This document shows, one piece after another, positions 8,929-50,954 of a DNA stretch of 64,000 bases. The stretch is from Amylostereum areolatum (lineage: Eukaryota > Basidiomycota > Agaricomycetes > Russulales > Stereaceae), in the NCBI GenBank assembly GCA_012932865.1, contig SAXG01000024.1, positions 248,001 to 312,000 of the forward strand. Direction: 5' to 3'. The translations under genes were made by a program, and so were the position numbers. Positions within the stretch are counted from its first letter, which is position 1. Each line of letters starts with the position of its first letter. The notes beneath the pieces were generated by a model. That model saw only the letters and a list, made by a program, of their open reading frames with translations. It ran no database searches and was not told where the DNA came from.

Positions 8929-8947
8929 GCGTCTCATCACGGGGGAG

Positions 8948-16320: not shown

Positions 16321-16403
16321 CACCAAAGTCCATCGTACACGGTGAGCGGACACGCAGAATCACCGATCGTCACGGGCTAGCGGACGTCGGCCGACACCGC
16401 CTA
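16321..16403 (+). repeat. left terminal inverted repeat of the giant element
   Basis: Begins CACCAAAGTCC; contains CGTACACGGTGAGCGGAC and GTCACGGGCTAGCGGACGTC. Pairs with 43964-44046. The outer limit could be a few bases further in (CACGGTGAGCGG). Confidence 0.75.
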
Positions 16404-17443
16404 GGTTTCCGGCGAGACCCCAGGCGGTGTGGGGTCAGCCGACGCGGGCCTCGCCAGCGGCCTAATAGCGATTTTGTCACAGGTCGGCCCACGATTGGTG
16501 GTATCGGGGCGGCCGATGCATGACCTCCCGACGAGGGTATCCCGCTCTGTTTGGAGTCGGCTGACGCATACACCACATCGGGTGGGCTCATACGCAGGGG
16601 ACGGGGGGTTGCTGGGTGGGATCCCCCGCGCCAGCGGGGAAATTTTTGCCCTTTTTCACAATATATACACCCAGATTTGGCCTCAAATATTACACCGGGC
16701 ATGTGCACTCCTCGCCGGGGGGGATTCCCCGCGCCAGCAGCGAAAAATTTGCCCTTTTTCACAATATATACGCCCAGAATTTTACTCAAATATCACATCC
16801 AGCACCCTCACCCCTTACCGGGCGGATGGTGGTTGGGGCGGTGACATGCCCGGTGGAATTCCGCGCGCCAGCGGGGAAATGTTGGCCTTTTTTCACGATA
16901 TATATACGTCCAGATTTGTACTCAAGTATCACACCGAGCACATGTACCCTTCGCCAGGCAGAACTCCCCCCGCTGACGGCGAATCTCTTGCATTTTTTGA
17001 CCATATATCCGGCCAGACTTGCACCCAAATATGATATCGAGCACCTCCCCCCTTCGCCGGGAGGGTGGCCGTCCCCGGTTGGAACTTCCCTTCGCCAACG
17101 TGGGGAAATCCGACTAGTCATTCCCGGCAAGGTAGATTTGGGCTTTCGCTGTGCAAGGGGAGGCGACTTGCTTTCTTGGTGCAGAGTTGCTTGCCTGTTC
17201 TATATATTCATCCTTTCGCCGAGTTACCACTGTGGCTCGCCGCTGGACAACCCCTCTCTGGAGACGGTATCATCTGACCGGAAGGACATCACATTGTGTT
17301 CAATCTTCTATCGCCAAGTGGCTAGGCCCACTCGCCGGCTGCCACAGGCCTGTCTCACTCGCCGCCCAGACTATGCCTGTTCACTGAAGACCATCACATG
17401 GACTCACACACCGTGGTTCCTATTTGAATACACGCAATTCTTC
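16404..17443. repeat. left subterminal region with diverged ~100-135 bp tandem repeats
   Basis: Four copies of a unit starting CGCGCCAGCGGGGAAA, followed by a T-rich block, TTTTTCACAATATATAC and CTCAAATATCACA, start near 16627, 16728, 16862 and 16969. Copies have diverged by substitutions and indels. The remainder to 17443 is Cys/His-poor noncoding-looking sequence with scattered CTCGCCG motifs. Subterminal repeats of this kind often bind the transposase in DNA transposons. Confidence 0.7.
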
Positions 17444-18329
17444 TCAAACCGCTTCCACCTGCGCAAGGTCATTCCACCGCTGAGCCAACCTGGCGAGACC
17501 GTCAACAATCCTGGACCGCTCATGCACCATGTTCTCTTCCAACCCCCCTGCATGTGTGGCTACCACAGCCAGCCGCTCCCCCTGCTCTTTCATCCAGGCC
17601 TTCCAAGCCTTCCCCCCGTTGTTGCCAACGTCCTATCGAGACGTCAGATTGCCGGACAAGTCAGAGTTCACCGAAGGAACCCGACCTCGCCAAAAGCTGG
17701 TTCCAACCGCTGAACAGAGACTCACCTCGCCGAGCGCCATGTTGATGACCTGGGTGAAGGCCACCCGCACGTCATACTCCTGATTTTCCCGAATCCATGT
17801 CCACCAGGTCGGGAGATGGAGGGCGGGGGTGCTGTCCTCTGTGCTCCCCGCTCTGGCCGCGGTGGTGGGGATATCCGCCCACTCCCCCTCACCCTCATAG
17901 AAATAGAGGTAGACGGCGTGGACGGTGTCGGGGACGGTACAGCTGTACCCGCGCAGGCGACAAAGGCCAACGGCCATTATTGCCATGTCCTGGGAGATAT
18001 TAGAGGGGAGGAAACTTGACCGAGATACCCCCCCCCAAAATGACACTTACCAGCTCGAACTGAATAGAGGTTTTGACCCCTCTGAGGCCATCCCACTCCC
18101 AAGAGGAGATGAGATCCCCTGCATTATTAATGAATGCCTCAGGTCGGGTGAGATGGGCGGCGGCGCGGCGAATGCGCCAGTCGAAGACATCGATAAGGCT
18201 TTGAAGGAGCTCCGCATGCTCCATGTCATCCTGGGAAGTTTTGGCGAGACACTCTATTGCCTCGCCGGGGGACCACCGAGATGGCGTCGCTTGGCCGGAG
18301 CCGGACTGTGTAGAGGGGAACGAGGGCAT
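17444..18329 (-). CDS. hypothetical protein h1 (3 exons) in the giant element
   Basis: Three exons fit in phase: 18329-18051, 17989-17726 and 17632-17444, separated by introns of 61 and 93 bp with GTAAGT/CAG and GTGAGT/TAG borders. The product is 243 residues, starts MPSFPSTQSG and ends LAQVEAV. The middle contains an aromatic stretch (AVYLYFYEGEGEW) and WWTWIRENQEYDVR; the C-terminal part is helical and charged. I recognise no domain. No stop or frameshift is present, so it looks functional. It lies next to and diverges from h2, with about 240 bp between the starts, so they may share a promoter. Confidence 0.7.
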
Positions 18330-18572
18330 TGTCGCGGATGGTTAGGGATGATGGAAATATGAAAAAAAAGAAGACAACTAACATCAACCAGCCTTGTATC
18401 TATTGACACAATGACGGAAGAACTTTGCCAGCGGCACAGTGGACAAAACGGGTGAGTCCATTGTTCCCCGGGCCGGGGAGACCCGAACGGAATGATCTCC
18501 GAGCCATCGACGTGATGGAATCCCCCACCCTCTTTCTCTCTTCCCTTCATCTCACCCTCTCCTCCTCTCCTG

Positions 18573-19557
18573 ATGTCGCAGGACCAGCAAATTCAGGAGG
18601 CTGAGGAGCCATATGTGTGGGAGGAGCGTCCCATCTTCGAGGTCCTACCTTCGAACCACCCCCCCTCTTACCTCAACGGCACCGGCGAGCTTTACTACAC
18701 CACCGCATTTCTCCGCCCGGCGGCCCGCGCCGCCGCATCAATGTACATAATCTCGGCGGATGATCTATCCAGGGGGCTCCTCGCCGAAGCAGTGAGTTTA
18801 CCCTTCCCCCTAGATTTCCCCTGACCTTGTTTGTTCCGGCCAGAAATACATGGTCCGCCTGACCGGCCAGTATGCCATGCGGTACCGTGCGACCCTTCCC
18901 CCCAACCCCGACCTCCTCGCAATCTACGCCGTGCTCACCGGGAAGACGCGGCCACTAGACCAGGATGTCACCATCGGGGACCTGCTCCCCCTCTTACCCT
19001 TAGGCCCCGACTTTCCCATCGATGATCGCCCTCACCTGAACCAGTGGTGGGATGAGAGAGGAGTGGTGGAGCGGGGTGTCGAGTCTGCAGCGCTGGATGC
19101 GGTCGCTGTGTGGGAGGAGTGCGCAGTGAGTGCTATCTCCACATGATACAGTACACCGCTGACCTTTCTGCCTTTGCAGCCCCTCCATGTGGCCCTCACG
19201 CGCATACGCGCCATCAAGCGCGAAGTGGAAGACCAGCTGATGGAAGTGGACTCGGCGGCGCCCTCGCCAACAGTCCATCTCTTTGCGTCAGCGAGACTCG
19301 CCGACCTTGGCCCAACCGGGCAGGCCATTGTCCGTGGGCAAATGGAGGCTCTCGTTAGCGCGTGGAAGATGATTGAGAACATCCGCGACATCCACATCCA
19401 ACCGACCGCGCAGGCGATGGCGAGGAGAATGGACGCAACAGTTCGCCGACTGCGCCACATCGCCAAGATGGACGCCGTTGCAGTGGAACTGGGGCAACTG
19501 GGAGGGCAAGGCGGCGAATCGGCGGTAGTGGTGAGAGAGTCAGCAGGAGGGGCTTAG
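18573..19557 (+). CDS. hypothetical protein h2 (3 exons) in the giant element
   Basis: Exons 18573-18791, 18844-19125 and 19180-19557 join in phase 0 through introns of 52 and 54 bp with GTGAGT donors and CAG acceptors. The product is 292 residues, starting MSQDQQIQEAEE after a C/T-rich leader. It contains YAMRYRATLPPNPDLLA, and a helical C-terminal third with TRIRAIKREVEDQL and ARRMDATVRRLR that could form a coiled coil. No catalytic motif or membrane segment is seen. Intact. It converges on the KDZ transposase gene, whose stop is only 156 bp away. Confidence 0.72.
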
Positions 19558-19712: not shown

Positions 19713-22700
19713 CTAGGGCTGGGGGTGAGGTGGAAGCTTGTCAAACTTGGCCTGAGTGTGCTCGCCGAGTCCCATCCACATTGCGACTTGTCGCCGAGCA
19801 AAACACGCCGCCCCCGGTCTTCCGGCCAGTGCTGTCGCTGCCGCTCTGTCCGTCCACTTCTCGGTGAATGTCTTGTAACCTCTACCGGTAACTTCCATCT
19901 CCAACTGGAGGATCTTCAGCTCTTCCGCTGTCCTGTTATACACCATCTTCGCCGAGAGCCAGTTCACCCTGTAGACTACGGCAAATTCAGCGGAGGGGAT
20001 CGCCGCAGAGTGGGTTCATACTCACAGTCGAGCAGTTGCAGGTTCTTTGTGGCATCTGATTCCACATTGATAGTCCAAAACCAGGCCAGCTTGGGCATCC
20101 GCTTGGAGGTATTGGCAGGATCGACGACGGCGGTGGTGACCTTGAGGTCGTTGTGGGTGAGCCGTTGATACCGTCCCCGAACAAAGGTACCTGTAGAGAG
20201 TGTAGGCCCCGCCGATAGGCGGATGGCTCCTGGGGAGCATGGAGGGCCTCGGTGAGTCCAGGGAGGTCCGGCGTACCGGAGGGGTAGGCTTGCCGCATGA
20301 TGATGTCGCCGGTGTCGTCATGAGTGACTGTTTCGCTCGCCGAACCATCGTCGGCAGTGGGTCTTGGCGGGGGAGTGAAGAGCTCGGTGTCGGCAGGCCA
20401 GCCAATGATGTTGAGGGTGTCGAGGGAAGTGTTGTAGATTCTGGTGGTGACTCGCATGTCATGGTCGATAGCGTTGAGCTCATCCCAGTCCCTGCCCTTG
20501 AGGCACTGAGAGTTCCTGACGTCGCAGATGTGGGTCTCGAAACGCCATGCCTTCGAACCTAGCGAGACGCGAATTTTGTGAAGGGACTCGTCGAGCACGG
20601 CGAGACGCATCTCCTGCTCCAGGCAAACGAGGTCGGCATTCTCTGGCTTGGATAGCCAGGTCTGGCCCATCATAGAGGGTAGGTAGATAGCCATCCGCTC
20701 AGGCTGAATGCCGACACCGCGTAGAAGCGGCGTAATGTCCTGCCAGTCGTTGTCAGCCTCGCCGAAGCGCTCAATCTCGGGGAGAGACGTGAGGAGGAAC
20801 GGATCGTCGTCGGCGGGGGGGCGAAGGTAGGTCATGGCCTCGGCTTGGAAATTGTCGACTTCCTTGAGGATGCGCTGACGCTTGCGGCCGAGCTCGCGAC
20901 TCTCTTCGGCATTCTGGGGCATTGCCCTGATCTCCACCTGGAGCTTGATCCTAAGACGTGCGGTGAGTCAGTTACCGAGCGAGGTTCGCCGTGCAGTTGC
21001 CGTACACTTGCCGGCCGACGATCGGCGTACTCACATGCTGCTCTGGATAGATATCCCCTTTGCCATCCATGTCCCTCTCCCCAAGATACCCTGGCCCTCC
21101 CGCTCCTCCTGCATTGTCAGTGTCTCCACCTGACTGACCGTGCGGCCTTTTTGTTGTGCGACTTCGAATATCAGCATCCTCTCGGGCTCGGTGTCCCTCG
21201 GGGCTTGGGCTTCCGCAGCCTCCTTCAGCCACTCTTCTTGCCGCCAGAGGGCGACCGTCTCAGATATTTTCAAGAGGGTGGCGGTACGCGCCTTGAGGTC
21301 GGCGAGCGTCTTGCGCCATTTCCTGCAGAGGGTATCACCTTCGGCGAGTGAGCCAGCGAGCGACGCCACAGCGGGAAAGGGCTCACCCATTCCGACCATC
21401 TTCTTCCAGTTGGAGTCATTCATGTGGCCGTCGATGGTCTCGGCCCTGGAGCCCAAGGTCATGCCACGAGTGCTGGTGCCGATCAAGTTCATGAAAGACC
21501 AGAGGGTCTCGAGGATCTCGCTGTCGATGAGGCCAATGCCGGGGATAAACATCGGCGAGAACTTCGCCGTGCAGTCATTGACATGGCCAAAGACGTGCCA
21601 TATTCCTATACCTTTGAGGAACTCCTTGAAGATGGGCATCTCGAGGAAGTCGCTGGCCTCGAATCTGTCCTTGAGGTAAACACCATACTGACACATGATG
21701 TCGTACATGAGCAGGACCCGCTGGATGCCGTCCATGTTGTGGTGCAGGGCATTGTGGACGATGTAGTCGATGTTCTTTTGCCTGAGCTCGGTGAGTAATC
21801 TCGCCAAGCACAGAGTGCACGGCGCTTACTTTTCCCCCTTCTGCAGGTCGGCGATGCACTTGGGTACCATGCAGCCATGCCGGGCGCAGCAGCAGGCGAC
21901 CACGCCGGTGACGTCGAGGTTTTGCTGATCAAGGTTGCCTTTGTTGCGTGCCCGGTGGTCATGGCATTCCGGCAGGTCCACCTTTCGGCGAGAAGGGTGA
22001 GCGGTCGCCGAGTGGGACTATGGGCGCCTTACCTCATTGATATCGAAGGCGAGATCCAGGGCCTCCCTGTAGGGGCCGGGGTCGACCATGAAGCCCGACC
22101 CAGGGAGAATGGGATGGTCACCGGCGGCACTTCTACTCGCGAGGTGCTGCAGGTGAAAGTTCCCGTCCAAAGCGAAGCACCTTGTATATTTCCAGCTGGA
22201 TCGGCAAGTTGGAGCGGCAAGAGATGGGGAGAGGGGTGCTACGCACTACTCTTCGTCGTCTTCCCAGCCCTCTGGGAGGTTAAACCCGACCTGCGGGCAG
22301 GCCACGCAGAACCACGCATGCTCGCCGGGGGTCGGCATTTCCCAATGGTCTTTGTGCGCCCCACCAAATTTGATGACATTCTGGATTATTTGCCACTGTC
22401 GTGACACACGCAGGAGCTCCTTGTACCTGGACTGCTCGGCGAGAGGTCGTTACGCCCGGATGCACTTGGCGAAGCCTGAGACTCACCTTGACCGTCGCCG
22501 GGAAAGCTATGTTGGTTGCCCGCTGAAGCCGTCTCATGATGGAGTTAGAGTTGCTCCTACATTTGAGGTTCTCGAGCATTGCGTCGTCGAGGAAGTTGTA
22601 GGTAAAGGCGGTGCGGGGCAAGGATTGGGTCGCCGGATACATCCGCATGTCGAGCAGCTGCTCGGTGACGAGGCTCGCGCTGTGACACTGACATGGCCTG

Positions 22701-23678
22701 ACGCCGATTTGATGGATGCCCGTTCTGTCGACCAGGACAAAGATCTTATTTCCGTACCTGTCTCGCTGAGGAATGCTGTCCTCCCCGGAGTACAGGTACG
22801 CTGGCTCGGCGTCGACACCGTCGCCGTCCCAATCGTCGTCTTCGTCGTCGACCTCTTCCACCATCTCCAGTGTGGTGTACGCACCCTCTGGAAGCGCAAT
22901 GTCAGGGCCATGGGGAGATGGCCAAGGCTGGCCATCCGGTCGGAGCGGGGACAGCGTCCCATCCAGTCCACGTGGGCAGCTGTCACGCCAAGTCTCATCG
23001 GGGATCTCAACCGGCGGCGCAGAGCCTCACCGAGGACGCTTCGGGGTCCACTCTGCATCTGCTGCTTCTGTTTCCTTCCTCATCCTGTCCAGTATGGGAT
23101 GACTATTCCCCGGGCTGTCCTCGTTGGCTGGTGCCTCGGTGTTGGGCGAGGTGAACTGGGGAATATTGGTGAAGATTGATAATCTGGCATGAATCTCACC
23201 GAGGGGATGTTCCGTCACCCGTTCAGCGAGTGAGGACGTGGATGGCCCGCCGAGAAGGGGAGAGACGACTCCCCCGGTTCCAATCCAAGATGGTCCTGGA
23301 CCTACCCTGACTCCCATGTAGGTGCCCAGGTGTCTGCGCCCTGCCCTATTGGCGGTGGTCGCCGGCTTGCACAGGGTGCCGACCATGACTGGCCAGTCCA
23401 GGTTGGGTGTCCGGTTGACCGTTATACCTTGGCGACGTTTCCGGCGAACCACCGCGATGACTTCCGCCGGCAGGGCTCTGCCCTTGCCTTTGTCAAGAGC
23501 ACTCGGAGGAGGTGGAGCATCTTGAGACTCTGAGCGCCCCGTCTCCCCTGCCCCTGGAAGTGGCGCATCCTCGCCGAGGCCACTTGGCGGGGGATCTGGA
23601 TTCTCGGTGAGATTGATTTTTGCCTCAAGGTCTGGTGTAGAGAATTCTGCAGGTGCTTCAGTTGTTGCTGTGGTTGCA

Positions 23679-23715
<37 letters not shown>

Positions 23716-24435
23716 CTGCTGCTGTTGCTGTTGCTGTTGTTGTTGCCGGACGTCCTCTCCGGATCGGAGAGGGGTTAAATGCATCGGCATCACAGCTCAG
23801 ACACGCCTCGCCGTGATGTCCGAGGGTAATGTAGACCCCTGCATCTCGAAGCCACGAGTCCTCCCAGAAGCCTGTCTTGTTCCACCACTGCACGCGGTGA
23901 AACGGAAGTCGCCGGTGCTCGTCGGCAAAGCAGGGCTCGCACATGTCTCGCCCCCAGAGACAGTCCTTGCATCACCATTCTGCACCGGCATTCACGCACC
24001 TTGCACACCGGCGACCCCCGATAGGAGCCTCGAGCTCCAGAATACGACAAGAGTAGTCATAGATATGAGGGGTCCAGGCATCCATGACCTGACCGGTAGT
24101 CTAGGGCTGTATTAGTACGATGCAAACACTCTCAGCAAGCTGCACACCTTGCCTACTCTCCTCAGCGGAAGGGCGTCCGGCGTGGGGTCGAAGTCGAGAT
24201 CCGGATTGTAATCCAGGTTCATTGGGGGACTCGGTGGCCGATCATCGAGCACAGGAGGGGCAAGACCCACCAGCATGGGCAGCCCGACGGCGGGGACAAC
24301 TTTTGGAATGGGATCAGATGGCCCTTCGCCGATATGTGTCTTGTACGTTGTGCGGTACCGCCCGTTTTTCCCCCGTCTCGCTACACGTTCGCCTTGAGCA
24401 TATCTGTGGTTTTTTTCCTTTACCATGTTATGCAA
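19713..24435 (-). CDS. KDZ transposase with CxC2 cysteine cluster (10 exons, one in-frame TGA)
   Basis: Ten exons all join in phase: 24435-24157, 24100-23031, 22979-22487, 22431-22247, 22195-22033, 21981-21830, 21781-21035, 20950-20277, 20190-20026, 19975-19713 (introns 48-86 bp), giving 1396 codons. After a variable N-terminus comes the CxC2 cluster associated with KDZ transposases (CARC, CKDC, MCEPC, then HRRLPFHRVQWWN and LGHHG). The core follows: GIHQIGVRPCQC, YPATQSLPRTAFT, ALDGNFHL, TGVVACCCARHGCM, LMYDIMCQYG, HVFGHVNDC, and a helical C-terminal domain. It cuts and moves the element in the nucleus. One TGA at 23974-23972 (codon 136, inside the cysteine cluster, between Trp and Cys-Lys) interrupts an otherwise intact frame. 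Skipping it as an intron would need a 34-bp intron and would remove conserved cysteines, so I read it as a nonsense mutation. Confidence 0.88.
23655..23755 (-). repeat. GCW/CAR trinucleotide microsatellite in the KDZ exon 2
   Basis: A run of GTT/GCT triplets on the plus strand, i.e. AAC/AGC on the minus strand. In the transposase frame it encodes an Ala/Thr tract between the cysteine cluster and the core, a region expected to tolerate length change. Confidence 0.85.
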
Positions 24436-24574: not shown

Positions 24575-24690
24575 TTACATTATAGAAGTCCCCACTCGGC
24601 GCGCTCGCCGCTCGCAGTACTTTTCGCTCGCCGTACTCATCGCTCGTCACACTCACCGCTCATCGCTCGCCACACTCACCGCTCACCGTA
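24575..24690. repeat. CGCTCGCC minisatellite between TET/JBP and KDZ genes
   Basis: Short imperfect repeats of CGCTCGCCGTACT and CACACTCACCGCTC occupy the space downstream of the dioxygenase stop (24676) and about 150 bp upstream of the KDZ start. They resemble the end motifs of the element (GGTGAGCGG). A regulatory or transposase-binding role is possible but not shown. Confidence 0.55.
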
Positions 24691-26032
24691 CCAGGAACGG
24701 TAGCGCTCAGGTAGCAGCTGAGATAGACTGCTCCACCCGGGGAAGACCACACCGAGATGGCGAAGTACGTTTCGCCGCATGTACCCCGCAATGCAAACCC
24801 TATTCTTCACGGTCGCCGAGACCATATGCAGCGTCGACGACCCACAGAACAGCGCCATGCTACCAGAGAGGTACTGGAATACCACACCGAACGTGGGCAG
24901 GCCGAGGGTGGTGTCGGCATCCCTGCCAAAGGTGGCGAGGTAGTCAAACCACGGGAAGTGGCTGCTCTGGGTGTCACGGTGAGCCGGGGTCTCCCTATTC
25001 ATGATCACCGAGATCACCGGCGTGATAAACGAGAACTGGGCGGCGAGAACCTCGTGCCCCGGGCACTCGGCGAGCTTCAGTAGGACCTGCCGCCCCGCCT
25101 CGAACATATCGGTGTGAGCAATGGCGAGTACGGCGCTGATGATCACGCCGTTCTCAGACATTGTCCCAATAAATTCCTGGCAGCACGGCATGTGTAAGTG
25201 CTTTGAGACGTGCAAATGCTCGTGGGCCTTCTGCGGGACTCCAACACAGTCACCAATGAGCTCTCCGACGAGGTACACGGCAAGATGCCAATCACCTCAT
25301 GACCCTGGGCGAACCAGCCCGGCGAGAGCTCCACTTGTTCGGTGTTGACCCTATCGTCTGGGCCAGGTTCGTTGTACCAGACGCCATCCGACCGCCATTT
25401 GTCGCTGCGAATGATGGTGGTGTGAATTGGCGGAGCCTGCAGCGCTGCGTCCATAATCCCGACCCAGTCTATCACCTCTGCCTGCAGACCGGGGAGTGTT
25501 CACGTCAGCGGGATGTGCTAACCGGTGAGAAGTGTGGCCGGTCGCGACCCCGGAGGACTTACCTGCAGCTCGGGAGACAGTATCTGGGGTAGATACCAAG
25601 TCAGGAGCCTGTCAATGGGGTCGATGATGACGGCGGGGTCGCAGATGGCGAGGGGCGGGTCGAAGGGGGGAAACTGGAGCTTCATGTCCATCTCCTTGAC
25701 CAGCTCCCCACCGTCCTGCCCTCCATGAAGCAGGTCATTGTGGTGCTCCATGACCCAGGGAATCTGGACTGAGCGGGGAGGTTTCAGCAGGGCTCGGTGT
25801 GGGTGCATCTGGACTTACTCGGATTCAGGATGGCGAGCGACATCACAACCGCCATTCTCCTGATCTCGGTGACCGTGCGCAGCAATAGGAGCGGCGAAGG
25901 AGGCAGAACCGGGGGTGGCGGCGAGCCCAGGTGAGCTGCAAGCTCGAGTTTGTAGCAGTCACGCATGAGTGCCGCCGCCGCATCCATAAGATCCAGTGCC
26001 CGCGCTGCATTGAAGAGGTTTCCTGATGCCAT
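24676..26032 (-). CDS. TET/JBP-family 2-oxoglutarate/Fe(II) dioxygenase (4 exons)
   Basis: Exons 26032-25819, 25768-25563, 25481-25296 and 25230-24676 join in phase (introns 50, 81 and 65 bp), giving 386 residues from MASGNLF. The C-terminal half has the double-stranded beta-helix signature of TET/JBP proteins: MNRETPAHRDTQSS with the iron ligands H286 and D288, then a PTFGVVFQY strand, then LHMVSA with the distal His (about H337), and RVCIAGYMRR with the Arg (about R346) that would bind 2-oxoglutarate. The family oxidises 5-methylcytosine or thymine in DNA. It lies head-to-tail upstream of the KDZ transposase, as known for basidiomycete KDZ elements. The reading frame is intact. Substrate is inferred from family only; start could also be 8 or more codons upstream. 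Confidence 0.85.
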
Positions 26033-31020: not shown

Positions 31021-31882
31021 CTACTCGTTAAATGATGCCTCCTCAATCGTTTGCTGGGTGTCTGCGGTCGCTGAGGCTAACCCATAAGCTCTGTTGACGG
31101 CGTCCATAGCGGCGGTGAGTGCCTTGGCCGCTGAGTCCCACACGGCGAGCTGGCCGGCGAGCTCATACGCTTCCCGCATAATCTCCTCCCGCTGCCACCG
31201 GCTCTCCTCGTTCAGCATCGCCTCCGCACCTCGTGGCAGGGGGGGAGCATGGCCCCCTGTCCCCTCCAAGAATGTGAGCCAACTATTCAAGTCGGCGGTC
31301 TCTGCTCGGCGAGAAGTTAGCAAGCGGGGAGTCTCACCACCAAGGCCTTACCAGGATAGCGCACAAGGTGGCCGACCTCGTCAACGAGCGGGGAGGTGTG
31401 TACGGCAACAGCTGAGGCTTCCCCTATACGAAGGCAAAGAAAGGGGATGAGAGATGGGCCGCTCCCGACGAAGACAGCTCGCCGCGTACCTCGTTCGTAG
31501 GGCCGGCGGGGAAGGCGTTCCACCACCCGGTGAACCACATTGTCGCGGGGACTGTACTCCTGATGGAGCTCCAGATCCCAAAATCGGATGGGACGGATAG
31601 GGGGGCGCTCTGGATTGAAGGGTGGGTGAGCTGGGAGGCCATGGGCGATGGTGTCAGTTGGGGCGGTGACGCCTGCTTGATCATCTGCAGTCATTGAGTC
31701 GGCGATATCCTGGGTGCCAGCGGTCACAGTGAGGAGATCGGCGATGGATGGCTGAACATCCATGTCAATCTCTCGGCCCTTTCCTTTCTCCTGGGCTGCA
31801 GGACGGAGGGCGCTGATCGTGTGGTGCTCGCGGAGTTCGTCGCTCTTGCTCTCCACCTCCTTGCCGCTCCCCTCGCCCTCGC
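31021..31882 (-). pseudogene. 3' part of cargo gene h4, cut by gypsy-1
   Basis: From the gypsy border leftward the frame runs through 31490, then exons 31423-31352 and 31301-31021, joined in phase across introns of 66 and 50 bp. It continues the reading frame that ends at 37856 when the gypsy element and one copy of its 5-bp duplication are removed. The product part is acidic and Ser-rich at first, then has an amphipathic helical C-terminus (NEESRWQREEIMREAYELAG) suggestive of a coiled coil. No known domain. Confidence 0.65.
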
Positions 31883-32302
31883 TGTCAGAAACGCAGTTTA
31901 TGAGACCAATGAATCGCCTAAGTCGCGACGATGGGAGGAGCGAGAAGAAAATAGATTCGAGAGTGCCGGGGTCTAGGGTAGTGCAACGTGCGCTACAGTA
32001 CCGTATGACGAGATGGACAGTCTAGGGAAAAGGGAAGAGAAACACTGTCCTTATATACAAGTGGGAACGATGGTGCGATGCAATGCAATAGTGGTGCGAG
32101 CGGGGGGAACAATAGGAAAGGAGTCATGGGGCGGAGGACAAAGGTCCGGAGCAGTGATGTCATAGATAAGGATGCAGAACCCCGCTCGGGAGTCCGGGCA
32201 ATGACGTCGTTGAAGCATGTGATGCAAGGGAAAGTCATGTGCCGTGACACGTCGTGTGTACGAGGTCTGCAAACGAAGAGAGAAATGGAGCGATCCATGA
32301 CA
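31883..32302 (-). repeat. gypsy-1 3' LTR
   Basis: TGTCA...TGACA, 420 bp. A TATA box (GTATATAAGG) is on the minus strand near 32060. The polypurine tract AAAGGGGGGGTAA (minus strand, 32315-32303) borders it. The pol frame runs 68 bp into this LTR before its stop at 32235. Confidence 0.95.
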
Positions 32303-35300: not shown

Positions 35301-36206
35301 GTCGAATACAGGCGCGAAGTCGCGGTACGGCGGGGGAACTAAGTCTTCAAAGGTTTGCGGGCACGCGTTCTCTTTTGAATGCTCTGCAAGCTCCTGCGCT
35401 TTTGTAAAGCCCGCGCGGATGGGTATTGCATCTGGATTAGGACCATCAGTTTCAGGGAGGATTCCGGCGCGGCGTAGTCCATTGATCTCCCAGTCTCGGA
35501 ATACCATGGGCCGCTCGTCGTCGTCTTCAGTGAAGAGGCGTGTGGGTAGAGGGGAGCGATGGACCGTACGGACGCGAACACCTTTGACTCTGCGTGCAGG
35601 AATAACATAAGTGGGGACTGGGGTCCAGGACACATATGTCGGCTCTGGGAAGGGATCGTCCATGACGAGAGGTGTCCTCGGGGTTTTACCTGCTTCAACC
35701 TTACGCTGTGATTGGACCGATGATGGTTTCCGTGGCTTGGTTGCGAGGTTCGTCACAGGAGGTTTGGACAGAGTGCACGAGGGAGGGCAGCGGAGCATGT
35801 CAACACGGTCTCGTTGCCAGTCTATGGTGGGATTGTGCTCGTCGAGCCAGTCTGTTCCAAGGATCATGTCATGATCGCCGATGTCGGTGATGAAGAACTC
35901 AGCTTCTTCCTCATGGTACGCCTTTGAATCTTGCGAGTATATCCGGATCCGCTGGGTCGTTGTGTCGCGTACCCAGCCCATGATGTTCTCGGTGCCGTCC
36001 ACATTACGCACGGGGAACGGGTTTTCTAGTTTTCTTGTGGTAAGCTTCTTGCGTTCAACAAAGCTTCGGTTCAGGATAATTCGTTCTGCGCCGCTATCAA
36101 GCAGCGCGTCTGCATTGATTTCTCTTTTGATAACTCGTCCGATCAGCTTGACCTTGAGTGTGATCGATGGTGTTTGCCTGTTCTTGGTGACGGTAGACAG
36201 ATACAA
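32235..36206 (-). pseudogene. gypsy-1 Pol (protease, RT, RNase H, integrase, chromodomain), one stop
   Basis: Frame from 36206 leftward: protease ALLDSGAERI, reverse transcriptase with YMDDILVF, RNase H, integrase zinc region (HESPLAGHPG then CATCQSMK), catalytic triad in ISTDFIV, IISDRGPQF and HPQTDGQTERENQ, then a chromodomain (EYDVEDTID...YLVKWAGYPDSENTW) that would guide insertion to marked chromatin. The frame is complete apart from a TAG at 34119-34121 in RNase H, where TGG (Trp before TDHKNL) is expected. With a single transition as the only lesion, the copy was recently active. Confidence 0.92.
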
Positions 36207-36319
36207 ACACGGGGGATACGATTACTCACAGGTATGCATGGATGATAATACAGCGAAACGATTCGACGATGATACCAAAAGTCCTTTGCCTCCACCAGAC
36301 GACGCGACTGGGGGGCGTT

Positions 36320-37084
36320 TCAAAAATCCTGCGATTCCAGGATGTCCTTCAACAGCGCTACTGCCTGCTCCTTGCCTTCCGCGTCCAGATCCTTCAGCTG
36401 GCGAGTGATCACCGCGATGGTTTTGGACGGGTCGGGAGCTGCTTTCGCAGTGGGTGGAGCCGTGCTTGTCAGTGGGGGAGGGGCCTTGGACCCAGTCTCT
36501 ACTGCGCCCACCCGTCGCGCGCTCGAGTCGCGGTTGGGGCAGTCGCGAGAGACGTGACCGGCTTGTCGACACATGAAGCACTTGCCTTCGCGCATCATCT
36601 TTGCGCGCTCGTCGTCCGTCAGCTTTGCAGGGCGGGTCGAGGTGTTGGTGAAGGCGCCGACTCGGCGCGACGAGGAGTCGTTGGTTGAACCGTTCGAGGT
36701 GAGCGCGACAGCCCCCTTGGACTGACTGCTCTTCCTCTCCGGGATCTCTTCGAGCCACTGGTGGTTGATGCGGCGGGTGCGCTCCTTCCACTCCGCGAGC
36801 TTGGTGGGGAACGGGTACGACCGGGCCACCTGCTTGCCGAGGTCACGCTGAAGTCCCTTCTTGAAAAAGTGGATTAGCGCCTCGTCGTCGTACGCTGACA
36901 TGGTTGCCAGCATCTCAAACTCGGTGATAAAGTCAGTGACGTCCCAGGTGGTCATCGCGAGCTCGTTGATCTTACGCTGAGCCTCTATCTTCGGATCGAT
37001 GGGCACGAAGTCTTTGCCAAACCTCTCGAAGAGCTCTTTGTAGGAGTTATAGTGGAGTGTTGGGGGCGTGGAGGGTGAATTCAA
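36320..37084 (-). CDS. gypsy-1 Gag
   Basis: About 255 residues ending ILESQDF. It contains a retrotransposon gag core (FGKDFVPID...WDVTDFITEFEMLA) and one CCHC knuckle CFMCRQAGHVSRDC. The start is unclear: the open frame begins at a TTG at 37084, and the capsid N-terminus is short compared with related Gags, so upstream sequence may have been lost or is joined by frameshift. Pol begins about 110 bp further in another frame. Confidence 0.8.
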   Translation of the reverse strand: MNSPSTPPTLHYNSYKELFERFGKDFVPIDPKIEAQRKINELAMTTWDVTDFITEFEMLATMSAYDDEALIHFFKKGLQRDLGKQVARSYPFPTKLAEWKERTRRINHQWLEEIPERKSSQSKGAVALTSNGSTNDSSSRRVGAFTNTSTRPAKLTDDERAKMMREGKCFMCRQAGHVSRDCPNRDSSARRVGAVETGSKAPPPLTSTAPPTAKAAPDPSKTIAVITRQLKDLDAEGKEQAVALLKDILESQDF

Positions 37085-37435
37085 GGTGTTCGAGATCTAC
37101 GTTGATGCACGTAGTGATCCGGACGTATAGGGCGAGGACGATAGTACCGTGATCCTTGTGCCACCTCCACTCGAAGATGCGGAAGTTGAGGCCGTGCACG
37201 GTCCAGGGATCTTTCTTGCAGAGGTTCTGTACGGGGACGAGGCAGTTGACGGTGACGGCGTCGGACCAAGGGTAGGGGAGTGGTGCGTCGTCGCGGGGGG
37301 TGATCGGCTTTCCGTTGAATGGGAGGAAGACCGGTGCGTTCGGGAGGTCCGTGGTGGGAGTTTTTAACGTCGTAGAGACGGCAGAGGTAGATGGAGAGAG
37401 GGGTGCGAGGTAGGCGTAGGGGTAGACTGTCCAGG
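37085..37435 (-). other. gypsy-1 leader with an open frame of unknown origin
   Basis: Between the 5' LTR and gag the minus strand is open for over 100 codons (around FNGKPITPRDD and WTVHGLNFRIFEWRWHK), ending in a TAA shortly after entering gag sequence in a different frame. It does not look like Gag and I recognise no family. It could be an extra ORF or a capture. Confidence 0.4.
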
Positions 37436-37855
37436 TGTCAGAAACGCAGTTTATGAGACCGATGAATCGCCTAAGTCGCGACGATGGGAGGAGCGAGAAG
37501 AAAATAGATTCGAGAGTGCCGGGGTCTAGGGTAGTGCAACGTGCGCTACAGTACCGTATGACGAGATGGACAGTCTAGGGAAAAGGGAAGAGAAACACTG
37601 TCCTTATATACAAGTGGGAACGATGGTGCGATGCAATGCAATAGTGGTGCGAGCGGGGGGAACAATAGGAAAGGAGTCATGGGGCGGAGGACAAAGGTCC
37701 GGAGCAGTGATGTCATAGATAAGGATGCAGAACCCCGCTCGGGAGTCCGGGCAATGACGTCGTTGAAGCATGTGATGCAAGGGAAAGTCATGTGCCGTGA
37801 CACGTCGCGTGTACGAGGTCTGCAAACAAAGAGAGAAATGGAGCGATCCATGACA
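37436..37855 (-). repeat. gypsy-1 5' LTR
   Basis: 420 bp, TGTCA...TGACA, three differences from the 3' LTR, all transitions. The minus-strand TATA box lies near 37613. Confidence 0.95.
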
Positions 37856-38552
37856 CTCGCCTTCCTCGTTGTCCTCTTCATCGGTGACGTCTATGTCGTC
37901 GTTCAGCAAGCGCGGGCTGGGGTATCCTGGGGCATCCAAGGCGGCACTGACCGGAGAGTCAGGTGGGCTTGGTGTGAGGGGGGGGATCGACAAGTCGAAA
38001 GGTCGAGGCGGAAGAATGGGCGGCGGGGAAAGGACGGGCGGTGGGGAGTCGAGGAGACTAAAGGATAGGTCGGGTGCTCGGGAAGGGACAACTTCTCTCT
38101 CAGGGGAGAGATCGAGGGACAAGTTTGGAAGCTGGCGAGAAAGGTTGACCAACTGAGGAGAGCTCACCACAGCGGGAGGAGGGGATGGGGCGGGGGTGCC
38201 AATGTCCAAGGTTAAGTCGACCATCCGTCGAAAAAGAGGTGGGGAGGGCGGCGGAGTGATGTCCATGTCTACGGCGAGATCAGCGGGATGGACGGCGCGC
38301 ACGCCTAGAAGCCATGGAACAGCGGGGGTGTCGCCCATGTTGATATCCTCATCGCCGAGGTCGAAACTGAGATCGGGCGCACGCGGCGGCATGACTCTGC
38401 GGCAAGAAAGTAAAATGGTGGGTACTAATGAAGGTCAGTTGATCCCGGGGGCCTGAGGGAGAAGACTCACTGGCCTGGAATTCAGGAGGAAGCTTTGATT
38501 CAACGTCGAAGAGAAGAGAGGGGGATGAAGGCACGTTGAGCGCCGTGAACAT
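37856..38552 (-). pseudogene. 5' part of cargo gene h4, cut by gypsy-1
   Basis: A first exon from an ATG at 38552 (or 38567) joins through a short intron (about 38393-38474) to an exon that includes MPPRAPDLSFDLGDED and ends at the gypsy border in NEEGE. It is Pro/Ser/Asp-rich with repeated PDLSF and NLSLDL motifs, typical of a disordered regulatory or adaptor protein. Removing the gypsy element restores an open frame into 31882. Function unknown. Confidence 0.62.
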
Positions 38553-38802: not shown

Positions 38803-41800
38803 ATGTCCGAAAATCTCCAAGCCAACCTCCGCGCCTTTCTGACCCCCCTTTCTGCCTCCCGCGCCGCTGCCGTCGCCGCCTGCTGCCCGTACCACGTCTT
38901 CACGGCGCTGCAAGGCAAGATGGCGTTGACACTCGCCGAGTACGCCCTTGCGCCGATGATGGACGAGCTGGTACGCTCCTCCGCCCTCCGCTCTCTGTCC
39001 CCCTTGCTCACTAGCAAAGCGTAGCGGATCGCGCGAGAGTTCGCCCCAAAGTCCGCCTTCTTTAGGTGGTTCCACCAAGCCATCGTCCAACCCGCCACCG
39101 CCGGCAGCCAAGTCAACATGGGTCACCTTGCCGACCTTTGGCGGAACTCCGCCTACCCCGGTGTCGTCCCGGAAGATGGAGGAGACCTTGGGCCGGAGGT
39201 CTGGTGGCCTGCGTATGGTGCGTCGCCTCCCCGCTTTCGCCGCACCTCGCTCTTACATGTCCGCCAGTGCACCTTCCGCTCGGCGTGTCGACCTCGACGT
39301 TTGCGGACCCTCCCCCCACCCTAGGCCCATCCACTGCCGTCCCCACCGCCATCCCCACCACCGTCCCCGCCGCCATCCCCGCCGCTGTCCCCGCCACCGT
39401 CCCGGTCCCTGCCTTCGCCCATTCCCCTCCACCCCTTTGCCCCGTCCCTCCCCCTCCCTCCCCAGCCACGCAGCCCCTACCCCCCGTCGACACACCCACG
39501 GAGGCCACAGGATCGGCGAAAACTCGGGGAGGGCGTGTCATCAAGAGCAAGAAGTATGTCGAAGTCATGGACGGCGACGACACTGACACGCCGTACGAGA
39601 TCCCGCCGCCCCCAAATGGAAAGAAGACGGCGAAGACGAAGGACAAGGCGGGCAAGGTCAAGACCGAGAAAAAGAAGAGTGGCGAAGACTGAGCCCCCGG
39701 CCAACGAGAGGACGCTGGTCCTCCCTCTCCTGCCGGGGAAGTACGCCCAGCTCACGAGGACCACGTGGGAGGAGGCCGACGCCCTCGACACCATGGAGCC
39801 CGCTCAGCAGTGGTCGAAATAGGCGCCTGATGCTGAGGCCTCGGAAGAGCAGGCACTCAGGATGGGGTTGCATCCCGCACACCCGACCACGCCTTGGGTA
39901 CGCCGTTCACCGTCCGTTTCCTCGTTTGGACTAACCTCCTCGCACAGGTCCATTGTGAGGGCTGCGTCGCCACCGGGCGAACTTGCTTCATGGGCGGGGT
40001 CGCCGGGCGGAAAAATGTGGCCTGTGTGCCCTGCTGGCACCTCAAAATGGGGTGCTCCCTCGCCAAGTTCGTCAATCACCTGGTGCCTTATGCGCCACAG
40101 GAGTGGTTCGGTGAGTCTGCCCCCCTCTTTTGTCCTTTCCTTCTTCACTAACATGTACCTAGCGAAAAATGTGCAGCAGGGCCCGGAGCCCCCACCTGTT
40201 CCCCTCCCCCCCATCCAGCATCTCCCCGCCCCCTGGTGGCCAATGCTGGCGATCTACATGACCCCGCGGCTGCGGTTCGAGCTCAGCGTGTGAGACGACA
40301 CTAGCGTCCAGTCGCCACCTGCGGACGATGGCTCTATCGTCGCTGGGGTGTGCGGCGCATCCACCATCCTCCGCCGAGGAGGCCAAGAGCGCGAGGGCCT
40401 TCCACCCCTCATCCCAATGCCCACCCGTCCCCAAGACTGCCGCGCCCCCATCCGCCATGAAGAGGCGGCCACGACGGATCTTGGCAGGCGGGCAACCGCT
40501 CGCCGGCCCATCCTCCATCATGCCAACAGGGAGGAAGATCCAAGTCCTCCTCAAGTCGGCGTCCCCGCCGGAGGCCGGGCCAGAGCTCGAGGCCATCACC
40601 AACGACCTGAGGGAGCTGTCCGTCGCCGAGGTTGACCCTCCCCAAGCCCCTTCCACCGTGGTCCCCGCTGCGGCTGCCGCTCAACGCCCCGCTCCCGCCG
40701 TCGCCGCCATAGATGTCGACAACGACGAGGAGCGCTCCCGCCCAGAGGGCGAAAGGGCGGTGTTGCGCAAGGCGAAGTCGCGCGAGCGGCAGGCGCCTGG
40801 TGTCTTCCAGCCCCGGAGCCCCCTACGTGCGTCGTGTCTCCCCCCGTGCTGCAATAGCTGACCTTTCTTTTTAGCATTGCCGCAGACCTTCCCTGCCCCT
40901 CCCCCTCCCCCCACCCAGGACCGAGTCGGCGGCGACTCCCTCAGCCGGCGAACATTCGGCGACCTCGAGCGGTCGCTGGACTTGTGCTTGGGGCTCGAGC
41001 GGTTGCGCGCGGACGCCGCGCACCAGGACGCCATGCGCCAAATTGCTGGTTTGCGCACAGCCGTCGAGGGTGTAGTCCCAGCCCTCATCGCCGCCCTCGA
41101 CAAGGGAGGGCTCCTCCCCACGCCGAGCTGGGGCCCGGTCGGTGACCTCACGCGCAAGATGACGCGGATGACCGCGTACATGGGTACCATCGCCCAAAGG
41201 ATGACGAACGTGGAGACAAGAGTCTTTGAGACTCTCCCTCTTCCCCCTCATATGGTGCCGTACGCCTTCGGCATGGAGCCCCCCCAGCAGGCGGCCTTCA
41301 ACCCTGGTCTCCCTCCCGCCATGCCCACCGTCCCTCCGGTCCCCCGCACCCCCAACCCTCGCCGCGGCTCGGTGGCATCCCAGGCTGGTCGGGCGGGTCC
41401 CTCTCAAGGCTATCGGGTGGTGTTCGCCGGCCATCAAGAGGCATTCATGGGCATCGGCGAGGCTCCGGACCTCGACGTGATCCATCAGATCGCGCTCGAC
41501 ATTCGGGGCAGAGCCAACTCAGCCGGCGTCGACTGGCAGGAGCTCCTGCATGAGCTTGGCACACCGTCGGTGAGCGGCGAGCGCATCCCTGGCGGCCATC
41601 GGCCCACCCCCTCCCCCTCCCTACATGACGGCACGCCCGCCATCAGCGCGATCTCCGCGCCAAGGGGCCAGGTTGTCCCCACCTGGCCGGACACTCTGCC
41701 TACCCTGCCTGGCCCCTCTCCCGCCCACGGCTTGGGGACGACCGGTGAGGTCTCCCCCTCCAAGCAGTCCCGCGCACGCCCGTCCACCTCCCCCGCCTCT

Positions 41801-42988
41801 CGTGCCCCTGCCCATCACGCCAACGGCTCGGGGGAGACCACCCCCACCCCGCCGGTCAAGCCCTCCGCAGTGAGGGCGACCTCGGTGATCTCAATCCGAG
41901 ACACCCCGTCACGGTCGCCCACTCCCCGGATGGCGTCCTCGACCCTCCTCAACCCTCCAGTCGGCGAGGAAGACATTGCGATGGAGGACGTCGAGCAGGG
42001 GGCAGAGGAGATGGAGATGGCGGACGATCCAGACGCCGATGAAGATGGAGGGGCTAGCCCCATTGCCGCCCTCGCCCCTGTTGCCGCCCCCGCCGCCTCC
42101 CCCGTCCCCGCCGCCGCCGCCGCCTCCCCCGCCAATGCCGCCGCCGCCTCCCCCGCCATCGCCTCCGCCGCTCCCGCATCTGCCTCCCCCGCCGCATCCG
42201 CCTCCCCTGCCGCATCCACCGCTCCCGCCACCACCGCTCCCGCGTCCGCCTCCCCCGCCGCCCCTTTCTTCCCCGCTGCCGTACGTCAAGCGGACAGTGC
42301 CCCCATGGCCGGCCCTTCTCGCAGTGTGCGCGTAGGAGGGCACGCTCGGCGCCGTGGTCCCTGGTCCACCGGCCACATCCTCTCTCTCGCACCCGGCGAC
42401 GTCGACACCGAGGAGGGCCAGACCCCCAGGCACTCCCCGCGGACCGCGCGCATCACCGTGCCAACCCCCTCCCTGCCCTGGTCCCCCATCTCGGCAGCAG
42501 CTCGAGACGCCGCCGAGGCTGTCGAGCTCGCCGCCTTCGACGAGGTGTGCGCTACGCGGGACAAGCGCAAGGACGCGGGCCCCGGCGACGACCTTGTCAC
42601 CCTCGACGCCGAAGCGGACACCGCCATGGCACGCTACAGGGCCGCTCGGCTCGCCATGTACGAGCTGAGTGAGGAGCACGCCGACCGCAAGGACGCCGAG
42701 CTGGAAGAGCCGGTGGCCCTCCCACCAGTCGAGGAGGCCGAGGAAGAGGCCGAGGAAGGCGAGGTAGTCGAGAGCGCGGCGTCGCTCAAGCGCAAGTCCG
42801 CCTTCGCTGGTGGCCCTCCCCCCAAGTCCGTGCGCACCAACGCCAGTGCCACTCGCCAGCATACTCGCAGTATGTCGGAGGCTCCCGCCAGTGGCTCGGT
42901 GGTTCGCGCTGCATCCGCCAAGCCGGCGAGCAGCGGGGGGCCCTCGAGGTCGACTGCCAAGCCGGCGAGCAAGGGCGGTAAGCGGTGA
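38803..42988 (+). pseudogene. cargo gene h5: cysteine-cluster protein with low-complexity tail, damaged
   Basis: Exons 38803-38970, 39025-39217 and 39268 onward join in phase; later exons include 39948-40110, 40163 onward and 40875-42988. Recognisable is a Zn2Cys6-like cluster (about 39954-40060: CEGC, TC, CVPC, GCS) of a kind common in basidiomycete element-borne proteins. The last 700 residues are Pro/Ala-rich, with an Ala-Ser-Pro tract (42060-42270) and a basic C-terminus. The frame shifts near 39685 and between 40294 and 40400, and stops occur at 39820 (TAG) and 40291 (TGA), so it seems inactive unless some gaps are introns I failed to see. It starts 250 bp from h4 in the opposite direction. 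Confidence 0.6.
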
Positions 42989-43963
42989 GCAGTGGGCGGT
43001 GGGCGGTGAGCGGTGGGCAGTGAGCGGTGGGCGCGCGCAGGTCGGTGTCGGCGAGGGGGATAGTGGGTAGTTTTTTGGGTTGTGGCTTGTAGTTTGGACT
43101 TCTGTTGGTTTGGTGCATTTGTTTCTTGGTTGATTTTTTCTTTTTGGGTTACATGGTTTTCTTGGGCGCTGTGAATAGTTTATTTTTGGTTGTATTTTGG
43201 TTTGTTTGAAATGATACATGTTTTCTTGAACCTCAAAGTCTGAATCCAAAGTGAAAGCATGAAGTCGTCTTGAAACTGTTGATGGTAAGTCTCGCCGGTC
43301 GGTCTCGCCGGTTAGTCTCACCGGTGCATCTCACTGGTGGGTGATGGACTTGCCGGCGGTGAAGCGCGTCGGCAACTCTCGCCGGTCCCACTCAGCGGTC
43401 ACAGTTTGTCATGCGTGGTGTACAGCGTCGAGAAGATCAGTGAGGTGGTGATTTGGAAATGTCGGATGTAGACGGGTAGAGAAATATATTTTCTTGAGAC
43501 TCAAGGGCTGAATAATAAGTCGACGTGTGAAGTCATCTCTGCAGCATTGATGGTGAGTATCGCCGGTCAGTTTTGGCGGTTAGTCTCGCCGGTGGGCTGG
43601 GGGATAAACTTGGCAGGGTTGAAGCTTGTGGGCGAGCATCGCCAGTCCCACTCAGCGGTCACAATTCGTCATACATGGTGAGGGATTTCCGGCGGGGAGT
43701 GGCCGGTGAGCATGGCCGGTGGGCTCTGGCGCTGGGTATGGCGGCGAGAACCCCTACACGTTCTGGACTGGGGAGGTATAGAGGTGTTGCTACCACGGCG
43801 GGGGGTGAGCAGGGTACGTAGGGAGCAGGGCGGGGGGTGAGCAGGGCGCTGAGCGTGGCCGGCGGGCCCTGCCGGTGGGTGTGGCAGCGAGAACCCCTGC
43901 AGTATAATAGGGCAGCGATTATCGTCGGCCGACCCCAGGGGCCTACCCCTGTCGTAACGGCTA
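42989..43963. repeat. right subterminal repeat region
   Basis: 42985-43030 has short repeats of GGTGAGCGGTGGGC. Two diverged copies of a unit of about 275 bp follow (near 43207-43433 and 43484-43700), each with TTTTCTTGA, a run of CTCGCCGGT motifs and CCCACTCAGCGGTCACA. A third short repeat (GTGGCCGGTGAGC to GCGAGAACCCCTRC) occurs at 43700-43765 and 43850-43905. No gene. Confidence 0.7.
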
Positions 43964-44046
43964 TAGGCGGCGTCGTCCGACGTCCGCTTGCCCGTGACAA
44001 TCGGCGAATGTAACCGTCCGCTCACCGTGTACGACGGAGTATGGTG
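43964..44046 (-). repeat. right terminal inverted repeat of the giant element
   Basis: Reverse complement begins CACCATACTCC and contains CGTACACGGTGAGCGGAC; pairs with 16321-16403. Confidence 0.75.
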
Positions 44047-50928: not shown

Positions 50929-50954
50929 CTTTTGATCATCCCATTAAGTGGGAG

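Follow-up and report, generated by a model that had tools for sequence, protein, structure and literature searches.

The window, that is, the whole 64,000-nt stretch of Amylostereum areolatum DNA analysed here, contains a giant KDZ-class unit at positions 16309-44059, which is flanked by the 7-bp target site duplication (TSD) GATATTG. In our reading, this interval is a single giant Kyakuja-like KDZ insertion of about 21.8 kb that was later enlarged by an LTR retrotransposon; together with the roles proposed below for its genes, we give this reading a probability of about 0.9. The unit is best filed as a giant form of the TET-bearing KDZ elements, Kyakuja-like by its TSD.

Boundaries of the element and its target site

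An 83-bp subterminal inverted repeat sits 12-13 bp inward of the true ends, at 16321-16403 (plus strand; recognised by the inverted match and by end-query matches) and at 43964-44046 (minus strand; recognised by the inverted match). Read as 16321-16403 against 44046-43964, the ungapped match comprises exactly 69 of 83 identical positions, reproducing the count first made from the sequence. A chance origin of the repeat is ruled out, since 60 rounds of shuffling both end regions (1.2 kb each) in dinucleotide blocks gave a best match of 46 of 83. The original prediction had taken 16321 and 44046 as the ends of the element; these positions hold as borders of the repeat, whereas the element itself ends at 16309 and 44059. 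The outer termini are GACCCCATGGTG on the left (16309-16320, plus strand) and AGGGCAATGTGTG on the right (44047-44059, minus strand), and these outermost 12-13 bp match each other poorly. Of the 19 end loci, 9 bear the left motif ACCCCATGGTGCACC and 10 the right one, which is slightly altered in C32 and C56b. Moreover, the direct repeats expected just inside both ends are present by repeat analysis at 16598-17068 and 43213-43901.

The two copies of GATATTG occupy 16302-16308 and 44060-44066, the right one being defined by end-locus comparison; the left one stands as a single copy at the uninterrupted sites L053-L055 and as GATGTTG at L058. A duplication of 8 bp was considered and dropped, as 9 of 10 right ends have G for the eighth base, irrespective of the flank on the left. 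In C96/C9, C56a and C99 the base eighth from the left end differs from this G, and a TSD of 7 bp is therefore favoured over one of 8 bp.

Other copies and uninterrupted target sites

Searches of the genome's contigs with three end queries gave 17, 22 and 19 matches, which resolve into 19 distinct end loci (9 left and 10 right), each with one of the two outer motifs. Six pairs of ends lie on the same contig, and the agreement between their TSDs is 7/7 in C100 (the contig of the window copy), 7/7 in C149, 6/7 in C96, 5/7 in C56a, 4/7 in C117 and 2/7 in C32, so that a clear TSD is absent in two of the six pairs, C117 and C32. Across contigs, the left end on C9 agrees with the right end on C96 at 7/7 positions, and C9 is read as an allele of C96; the left end on C99 and the right end on C148 also agree at 7/7, a pairing that was spotted post hoc. 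The other two full-length copies, of 28.5 kb in C149 and 26.1 kb in C96, have the same ends at other sites, and seven genes are collinear in these two copies and the window, with identical order and orientation. Thus, as the original prediction required, at least two further loci with equivalent ends exist, and these have 7-bp TSDs. Uninterrupted targets are likewise present for the C100 and C149 insertions: the joined C100 flanks gave six matches, namely their own two flanks and four uninterrupted copies of 80-90% identity, and for the joined C149 flanks all 40 scored places (40 of 443 candidates, 4 of them checked) are uninterrupted. Taken at the level of sequence, these comparisons show insertion as a block into a repeated target with duplication of 7 bp; defined ends and a target duplication in a mobile unit, as the KDZ superfamily has them, are both found.

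The interval of 27.7 kb had been regarded as one mobile unit in its entirety, and this stands for the block insertion, whereas about 5,970 bp of it do not belong to the element proper. They form a nested LTR retrotransposon at 31883-37855 (minus strand), whose LTRs (31883-32302 and 37436-37855) are 420 bp long and 99.3% identical. By sequence comparison, its own 5-bp target duplication, CTCGC, lies at 31878-31882 and 37856-37860. From its frames we take it to be Gypsy-like. It is a later insertion that splits the cargo gene D, and the size of the element proper is accordingly about 21.8 kb. In C149 the retrotransposon lies at a different place, inside the KDZ gene, while the C96 copy shows LTR-length matches only. 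Under the present models the C149 copy also has stops in genes A (one) and B (two), and in the C96 copy gene C is interrupted by two stops, while the frames of A, B and D appear broken; with gene D split in the window, no fully read copy is wholly intact. In addition, C137:185004-191308, which holds KDZ and TET genes only, was considered as a compact element and rejected: LTR sequence forms its left edge, and the right one enters sequence that is common to the C117 and C56 copies and absent from the window copy.

KDZ transposase and TET/JBP gene

The KDZ transposase gene, with a CxC2 cysteine cluster preceding the catalytic core, lies at 19713-24426 (minus strand), as judged from Pfam matches and conservation, its N-terminal exons being uncertain. 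In the trimmed spliced model, PF18758 is covered from 1 to 217 of 217 positions at 154.1 bits (cut-off 26.6), and the CxC2 domain PF18803 scores 62-64 bits (cut-off 27). The predicted transposase is thus confirmed in its KDZ domain; the ten exons proposed for it are not reproduced by our model, which has 17 pieces, some of them implausible micro-exons between 23752 and 23946. Candidate acidic residues are found in ALDGNF (22156-22173), YDIMCQY (21685-21705) and SEILETLW (within 21487-21522), and they presumably make up the catalytic triad.

The TET/JBP dioxygenase gene at 24676-25855 (minus strand; Pfam and CcTET alignment) has four exons and about 324 amino acids in the model. Its Pfam score is 35.1 bits on a single exon against a cut-off of 34.9, and 33.5 bits on the spliced model, slightly below the cut-off. 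Its similarity to CcTET of Coprinopsis cinerea (PDB 7vpn, 7w5p), an enzyme of known structure, reaches E=1.4e-17; compared by sequence, the metal-binding residues and the arginine align, although the overall similarity is weak and CcTET has 430 residues against 324 in the model. The putative active site comprises HRD (within 24970-24999), the distal His (within 24814-24840) and Arg (within 24772-24807), so the four-exon gene with H-x-D, distal His and Arg that had been read from the sequence is confirmed by both model and alignment. Furthermore, an Asp aligns with Asp337 of CcTET and a Ser with Gly331, and the motif is HxD, not HxE. The sequence features of AG-type enzymes (HxD, distal His, a retained Asp337, and Gly or Ser as residue 331) are hence found in the predicted protein, the residue numbers being those given in PMC12730594. 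For the TET core exon, a structure predicted from the single sequence had a mean pLDDT of 39.6 and was left unused.

Five further conserved genes

Conservation in the C96 and C149 copies supports the five additional genes proposed within the element. Gene A (17444-18224, minus strand, about 206 amino acids) and gene B (18573-19557, plus strand, about 292 amino acids) each have three exons in the model. Gene C (26801-30573, plus strand) encodes 670 amino acids up to 29158, followed by a low-complexity tail, its 3' exons being uncertain. The 3' part of gene D lies at 31021-31694 and its 5' part, placed approximately by comparison with C149, at 37861-38434 (both minus strand); the two are contiguous in C149, at 22852-21515 of the oriented copy. 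Gene E (38803-42988, plus strand) has a conserved N-terminal part (38803-39212), a conserved block (40946-41221) and a long low-complexity tail, and its exon model is unreliable. Against Pfam, genes A-E gave nothing above the cut-off, the one match to gene D, at E 0.06, being below it; against PDB, genes B and C and the N-terminal part of E gave nothing below E 0.07. A single-sequence structure prediction for a stretch of gene C (mean pLDDT 35.1) was left unused. With 45 of 124 candidates scored, 53 matches were listed for the four genes other than C, all of them on eight contigs that bear ends of the family, and an E-like copy is found about 40 kb beyond the C96/C9 element.

Gene C adjoins the TET gene, divergently and at a fixed spacing. 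In a second KDZ family of the genome, a relative of gene C with 20-31% identity is likewise divergent beside TET. No match to gene C was found in eight other TET-KDZ neighbourhoods of the same genome, so that gene C is either dispensable for TET-bearing KDZ elements generally or too diverged there to be detected. A module for epigenetic self-regulation had been suggested as possible cargo; in narrowed form, the candidate for it is the pairing of TET with gene C, which two of the genome's KDZ families retain. For a separate match to gene C, at C117:1669162, the closest match to TET is about 105 kb away.

Selection and divergence between the copies

For the window copy compared with C96 and C149, respectively, dN/dS was 0.13 and 0.13 in gene A, 0.17 and 0.17 in gene B, 0.13 and 0.15 in the KDZ core (6 of the 17 model exons; single KDZ exons reach 0.58), 0.15 and 0.15 in TET, 0.17 and 0.15 in gene C, 0.20 and 0.18 in gene D, and 0.12 and 0.10 in the N-terminal part and 0.24 and 0.18 in the second block of gene E, all of these values being biased low because the exon models were picked, on the same alignments, by a score favouring synonymous differences. 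In an unplanned wrong-phase control with the same code, the ratio was 1.23-1.27 in KDZ and 2.8-5.1 in the second block of gene E.

Non-coding divergence is 7-8% near 24.5 kb and 12.5-13% near 26 kb, and it rises to 23-28% in the left outer stretches and 18-24% in the right ones. These steps suggest, as far as alignments tell, that the copies are mosaics, whose core and shell have been swapped between element lineages by recombination. Differing rates of mutation or selection, rather than recombination between lineages, could produce such steps too; the full-length alignment covers three copies only, and the far right stretch at 41.8-43.3 kb, being less diverged (9-13%), is an exception that contradicts a simple core-and-shell picture. 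However, the non-coding stretches show the same steps, and C96 and C149 differ little from each other (dS 0.03-0.13) in the same gene parts, so we regard an explanation by rates as unlikely. On the mosaic reading, it is conceivable, and we put it forward tentatively, that the unit is modular and multi-gene, and more than a simple transposon with one acquired enzyme: it would have an ancient co-inherited core of transposase, TET and, as TET partner, a gene C product that would direct or complete TET action on the element, and a lineage-specific shell of four proteins exchanged by recombination.

Relation to known elements and alternative explanations

TET+ Kyakuja DNA transposons occur in Agaricomycotina, according to the available part of Kojima 2025 (PMC12730594). 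Compared by description with that part of the source, the present element shares with them a KDZ transposase with a linked AG-type-like TET/JBP gene, the 7-bp TSD, the TG-3' end, HxD, Asp337 and a Ser at the Gly331 position, and differs in having five more conserved genes and a length of about 21.8 kb once the nested insert is subtracted. Where a CA 5' terminus is described for Kyakuja, 8 of 9 left ends here begin with GA and one with AA; where terminal inverted repeats (TIRs) are said to be absent from the L. bicolor families, this element has its 83-bp repeat, in subterminal position 12-13 bp inside the ends. KDZ1-3 of Cryptococcus neoformans, as presented in the available part of PMC12810828, are 9.2-11 kb long with TIRs of 139-241 bp and TSDs of 8 bp (KDZ1) or 4-8 bp (KDZ2, KDZ3). 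Like our element, they combine a short TSD and long inverted repeats with a KDZ transposase that bears a CxC cluster, which is CxC1 instead of CxC2; that part of the source mentions neither TET nor further genes for them.

Could the cargo be host genes or neighbouring elements caught between two unrelated end repeats, for example of short non-autonomous copies? Ends without genes do exist, as none of the seven genes was found between the ends of the C117 element, and 7 of the 19 end loci are without a right-type partner on their own contig. However, the same seven genes recur collinearly in C96 and C149 within equivalent ends, a single TSD brackets the block whose uninterrupted target exists elsewhere, and the matches listed for A, B, D and E, with 45 of 124 candidates scored, keep to end-bearing contigs; the collinear copies and empty sites rule out two unrelated end copies, and such an origin of the cargo seems to us scarcely credible. 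Membership in Zisupton or another KDZ branch is a more serious question, considering that long inverted repeats near the ends recall C. neoformans KDZ1-3 (PMC12810828) and that the L. bicolor Kyakuja, with CA..TG ends, is described without TIRs in the available part of PMC12730594. Nevertheless, the 7-bp TSD and TG-3' terminus, together with Asp337 and Gly/Ser331 as in the Kyakuja TET of that source, make a position outside Kyakuja rather doubtful.

A further alternative is that TET and gene C serve the host and are merely carried by the transposon. The available part of PMC12730594 states that in C. cinerea other transposons, too, are covered by oxidised methylcytosine and that function is without experimental validation, while arguing that a benefit to the host is probably not primary; here, TET and gene C lie inside the mobile unit in independent copies with low dN/dS, and a service to the host is in our judgement improbable. 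Under the preferred reading of one Kyakuja-like insertion, the KDZ transposase would recognise the subterminal inverted repeats and move the element by cut-and-paste. The predicted TET/JBP enzyme probably oxidises methylated DNA of the element and may thereby weaken host silencing, gene C probably encodes a protein that works together with TET or with the transposase, and the products of genes A, B, D and E probably have accessory roles in the element lineage.

TET-bearing fungal DNA transposons are already known; the matters at issue are whether TET acts alone and how large such units grow. For the former, the pairing of TET with gene C persists in two element families despite their strong sequence differences, and because the window copy offers base-exact ends, empty sites and gene C as a candidate TET partner, the use of TET by transposons against silencing becomes testable in one genome. 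For the latter, a KDZ transposon with a TSD and inverted repeats can attain about 22 kb, its own genes numbering seven. Starships, the giant cargo-bearing mobile units of Ascomycota, have a tyrosine recombinase captain; the element described here, likewise giant and cargo-bearing, instead has a KDZ transposase, a TSD and inverted repeats near both ends.

Boundaries and copies of the element

The stretch 16309-44059 of the window is a real, giant, multi-gene KDZ transposon bearing a TET/JBP dioxygenase gene, with the genes A, B, KDZ (the transposase), TET, C, D and E in this order. As the original prediction had it, positions 16321-16403 match 44046-43964 in inverted orientation and without gaps at 69 of 83 positions, and the best of 60 shuffled controls reached 46/83. 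In a search of the 57.13-Mb assembly, where the window is contig C100, 248001-312000, the left 83 bp had at least 17 matches, a 297-bp right end at least 22 and a 300-bp left end at least 19. These merged into 19 distinct end loci, left and right ends being told apart by the sequence immediately interior to the repeat. At every one of them, an outer motif of one of two kinds follows the 83 bp, ACCCCATGGTGCACC at nine left ends and GGGCAATGTGTG, with small variants, at ten right ends, and the element is therefore delimited as 16309-44059. The inverted repeat does lie at 16321 and 44046, but these positions are not the true termini as had been proposed, since the repeat is subterminal, 12 and 13 bp inside the element ends.

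Outside 16309 and 44059, the element is flanked by the 7-bp target site duplication (TSD) GATATTG. Among six end pairs lying on the same contig, the two TSD copies agree at 7/7 positions in the window copy (C100) and in C149, 6/7 in C96, 5/7 in C56a, 4/7 in C117 and 2/7 in C32, the handles naming contigs or copies of the same genome. Seven of the 19 end loci have no proper partner on their contig (C9, C99, C148, C1, C56b and two on C108). Matching spacings lead us to take C9 and C96 for two alleles, and the left side of C9 with the right side of C96 gives a TSD of 7/7; the same holds for the left side of C99 with the right side of C148, on separate contigs, a pairing noticed after the fact. 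When both flanks of the window copy were fused at a single GATATTG, six matches were obtained. Two of them are the flanks of the window copy itself; at the other four the sequence is uninterrupted (90, 89, 86 and 80% identity on C109, C150, C1 and C137), with GATATTG kept in three and GATGTTG in one. With the fused C149 flanks, all of the 40 places that were scored, out of 443 candidates, were uninterrupted at 92-94% identity, and four of them were checked base by base.

The copies on C96 (26.1 kb) and C149 (28.5 kb) align along the element and contain all seven genes in the order and orientation of the window copy. Together with the TSDs and the empty targets, they confirm one mobile unit with copies elsewhere, which inserted as a block and has a common gene set. 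The C56a copy (10.6 kb) has both ends, A and B but lacks the middle. Towards its right end it keeps ~0.9 kb, corresponding to window positions of about 42.75-43.68 kb, and on its left side ~5.7 kb match neither the window copy nor the C96 copy. In C117 the ends are present and the tested genes were not found at E 1e-3. Both C117 and C32 (L007, L039, L021, L041) have ends as in the element, with no clear TSD at either, and since they share flanks, they may be allelic or duplicated. An extra gene-E-like copy (C96:434648-437501, C9:22558-25279) is separated from the C96/C9 element by about 40 kb.

The predicted extent of 27.7 kb includes a nested LTR retrotransposon at 31883-37855 (LTRs 99.3% identical, CTCGC duplication), which does not belong to the element proper, so that the latter measures about 21.8 kb (27,751 - 5,973 - 5). 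The frames within it are presumably Gypsy-type gag-pol. It separates two parts of gene D that are joined in C149, where a 97% identical retrotransposon sits at a different place, within the KDZ gene. In C96, matches to it are of LTR length only, and gene D is interrupted by something other than the retrotransposon of the window.

Genes and selection

Exon models were built by a script scoring synonymous versus non-synonymous change against C96 and C149, plus GT-AG introns. They are plain for A, B and TET, and hold implausible micro-exons in KDZ (17 pieces), C and most of all E. The KDZ gene had been described as complete with ten exons; its Pfam KDZ match indeed spans the whole domain length (with a CxC2 match too), but the model of 17 pieces does not reproduce the ten exons. 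The TET protein aligns with CcTET, the TET of Coprinopsis cinerea (E=1.4e-17). Its HxD, His and Arg fall in register with those of CcTET, in agreement with the predicted TET/JBP-like dioxygenase with H-x-D, distal His and Arg. Against Pfam, the spliced TET model scored 33.5 bits and a single exon 35.1 (cut-off 34.9). The protein has Asp at the Asp337 place and Ser at the Gly331 place, the places named for 5mC and 6mA in PMC12730594. A-E, common to C96 and C149, gave no Pfam match above the cut-off; they are the five unknown genes of the prediction.

Between the window copy and C96 and C149, each of the eight gene parts examined had a dN/dS within 0.10-0.24, values biased low because exon models and test use the same alignment; the KDZ core comprises six of the 17 model exons, and single KDZ exons reach up to 0.58. 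A wrong-phase run of the same code gave 1.2-5.1. The comparison of C96 with C149 gave higher dN/dS, with gene B at 1.14 (dS 0.03) and the other seven parts at 0.19-0.41, which fits a weaker constraint on those copies.

Divergence along the element

The window copy is separated from C96 and C149 by a dS of 0.13-0.15 for the KDZ core, 0.29-0.31 for TET and C, and 0.64-1.41 for A, B, D and both parts of E. C96 versus C149 gave 0.03-0.13 over the same gene parts. Non-coding sequence has the same steps. With bins of 750 bp, divergence drops sharply on the left, from 19% at 19.3-20.06 kb to 5% at 20.06-20.8 kb, and changes gradually on the right. The simplest reading, short of proof, is that two element lineages with a common KDZ-TET-C core may have recombined; however, 41.8-43.3 kb is also low in divergence (9-13%), which counts against a simple core-and-shell picture.

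Gene C, TET and possible roles

Outside the family of the element, relatives of the window C in its own genome are weak and number eight, two of them having 37-38% identity and the remaining six 23-25%. With the six weakest left out, four of nine window-C loci have a divergent TET match at 1.62-1.63 kb; among the other five, C96 has TET beside C (tblastn) and four have no TET match on the contig. On C105, a C relative (21-29% to the window C, E 0.004-0.006, tblastn) adjoins divergently a TET gene 38% identical to that of the window. Used as query, this relative recovers the 3' part of the window C (31%, E 2e-8) and, besides copies of the window element's family, 14 loci by our grouping, of which seven have a divergent TET match 2.02-2.03 kb away and seven have none within 50 kb or on the contig. 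Since some of these loci are alleles of one another or arose by recent duplication (C75 and C102 have identical distances), they do not count as independent events. The 2.02-2.03 kb arrangement is that of a second TET-bearing KDZ family, on C75, C102, C96, C150, C137, C105 and C107. With each exon counted separately, the genome has 27 matches to TET/JBP and 155 to the KDZ domain. Eight of the 27 lie about 3 kb or less from a KDZ match (C14, C164, C134, C95, C128:660225, C158:13864, C161, C1:2742822), and no C match was among those listed there for the window C and C105-relative queries, which argues against C-TET as a general module.

In the mechanism we propose, KDZ would move the element by cut-and-paste, acting on the subterminal repeats, TET would be a counter-silencing enzyme with C as its possible partner, and A, B, D and E may be accessory proteins. 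In TSD and TET residues our element agrees with Kyakuja as described in PMC12730594, but the 5' end, inverted repeats and gene set differ. KDZ1-3 are given as 9.2-11 kb with TIRs of 139-241 bp in PMC12810828.

Surroundings of the element

To the right, a second LTR element spans 45313-51433, with 480-bp direct repeats (45313-45792 and 50954-51433) 93.75% identical. We take its frames to resemble Copia gag-pol. To the left, long frames on the reverse strand at 13368-15989 are transposase-like in look and presumably Plavaka-like; two of them, searched against Pfam, gave no match. Furthermore, there are a large near-perfect palindrome at 53485-54509 (arms ~460 bp, 95-96% identical), a 148-bp direct repeat at 60040-60187 and 61107-61254 (100% identical) and, at 1-9345, several repeat families of 92-99% identity, inverted units of ~207 bp among them.
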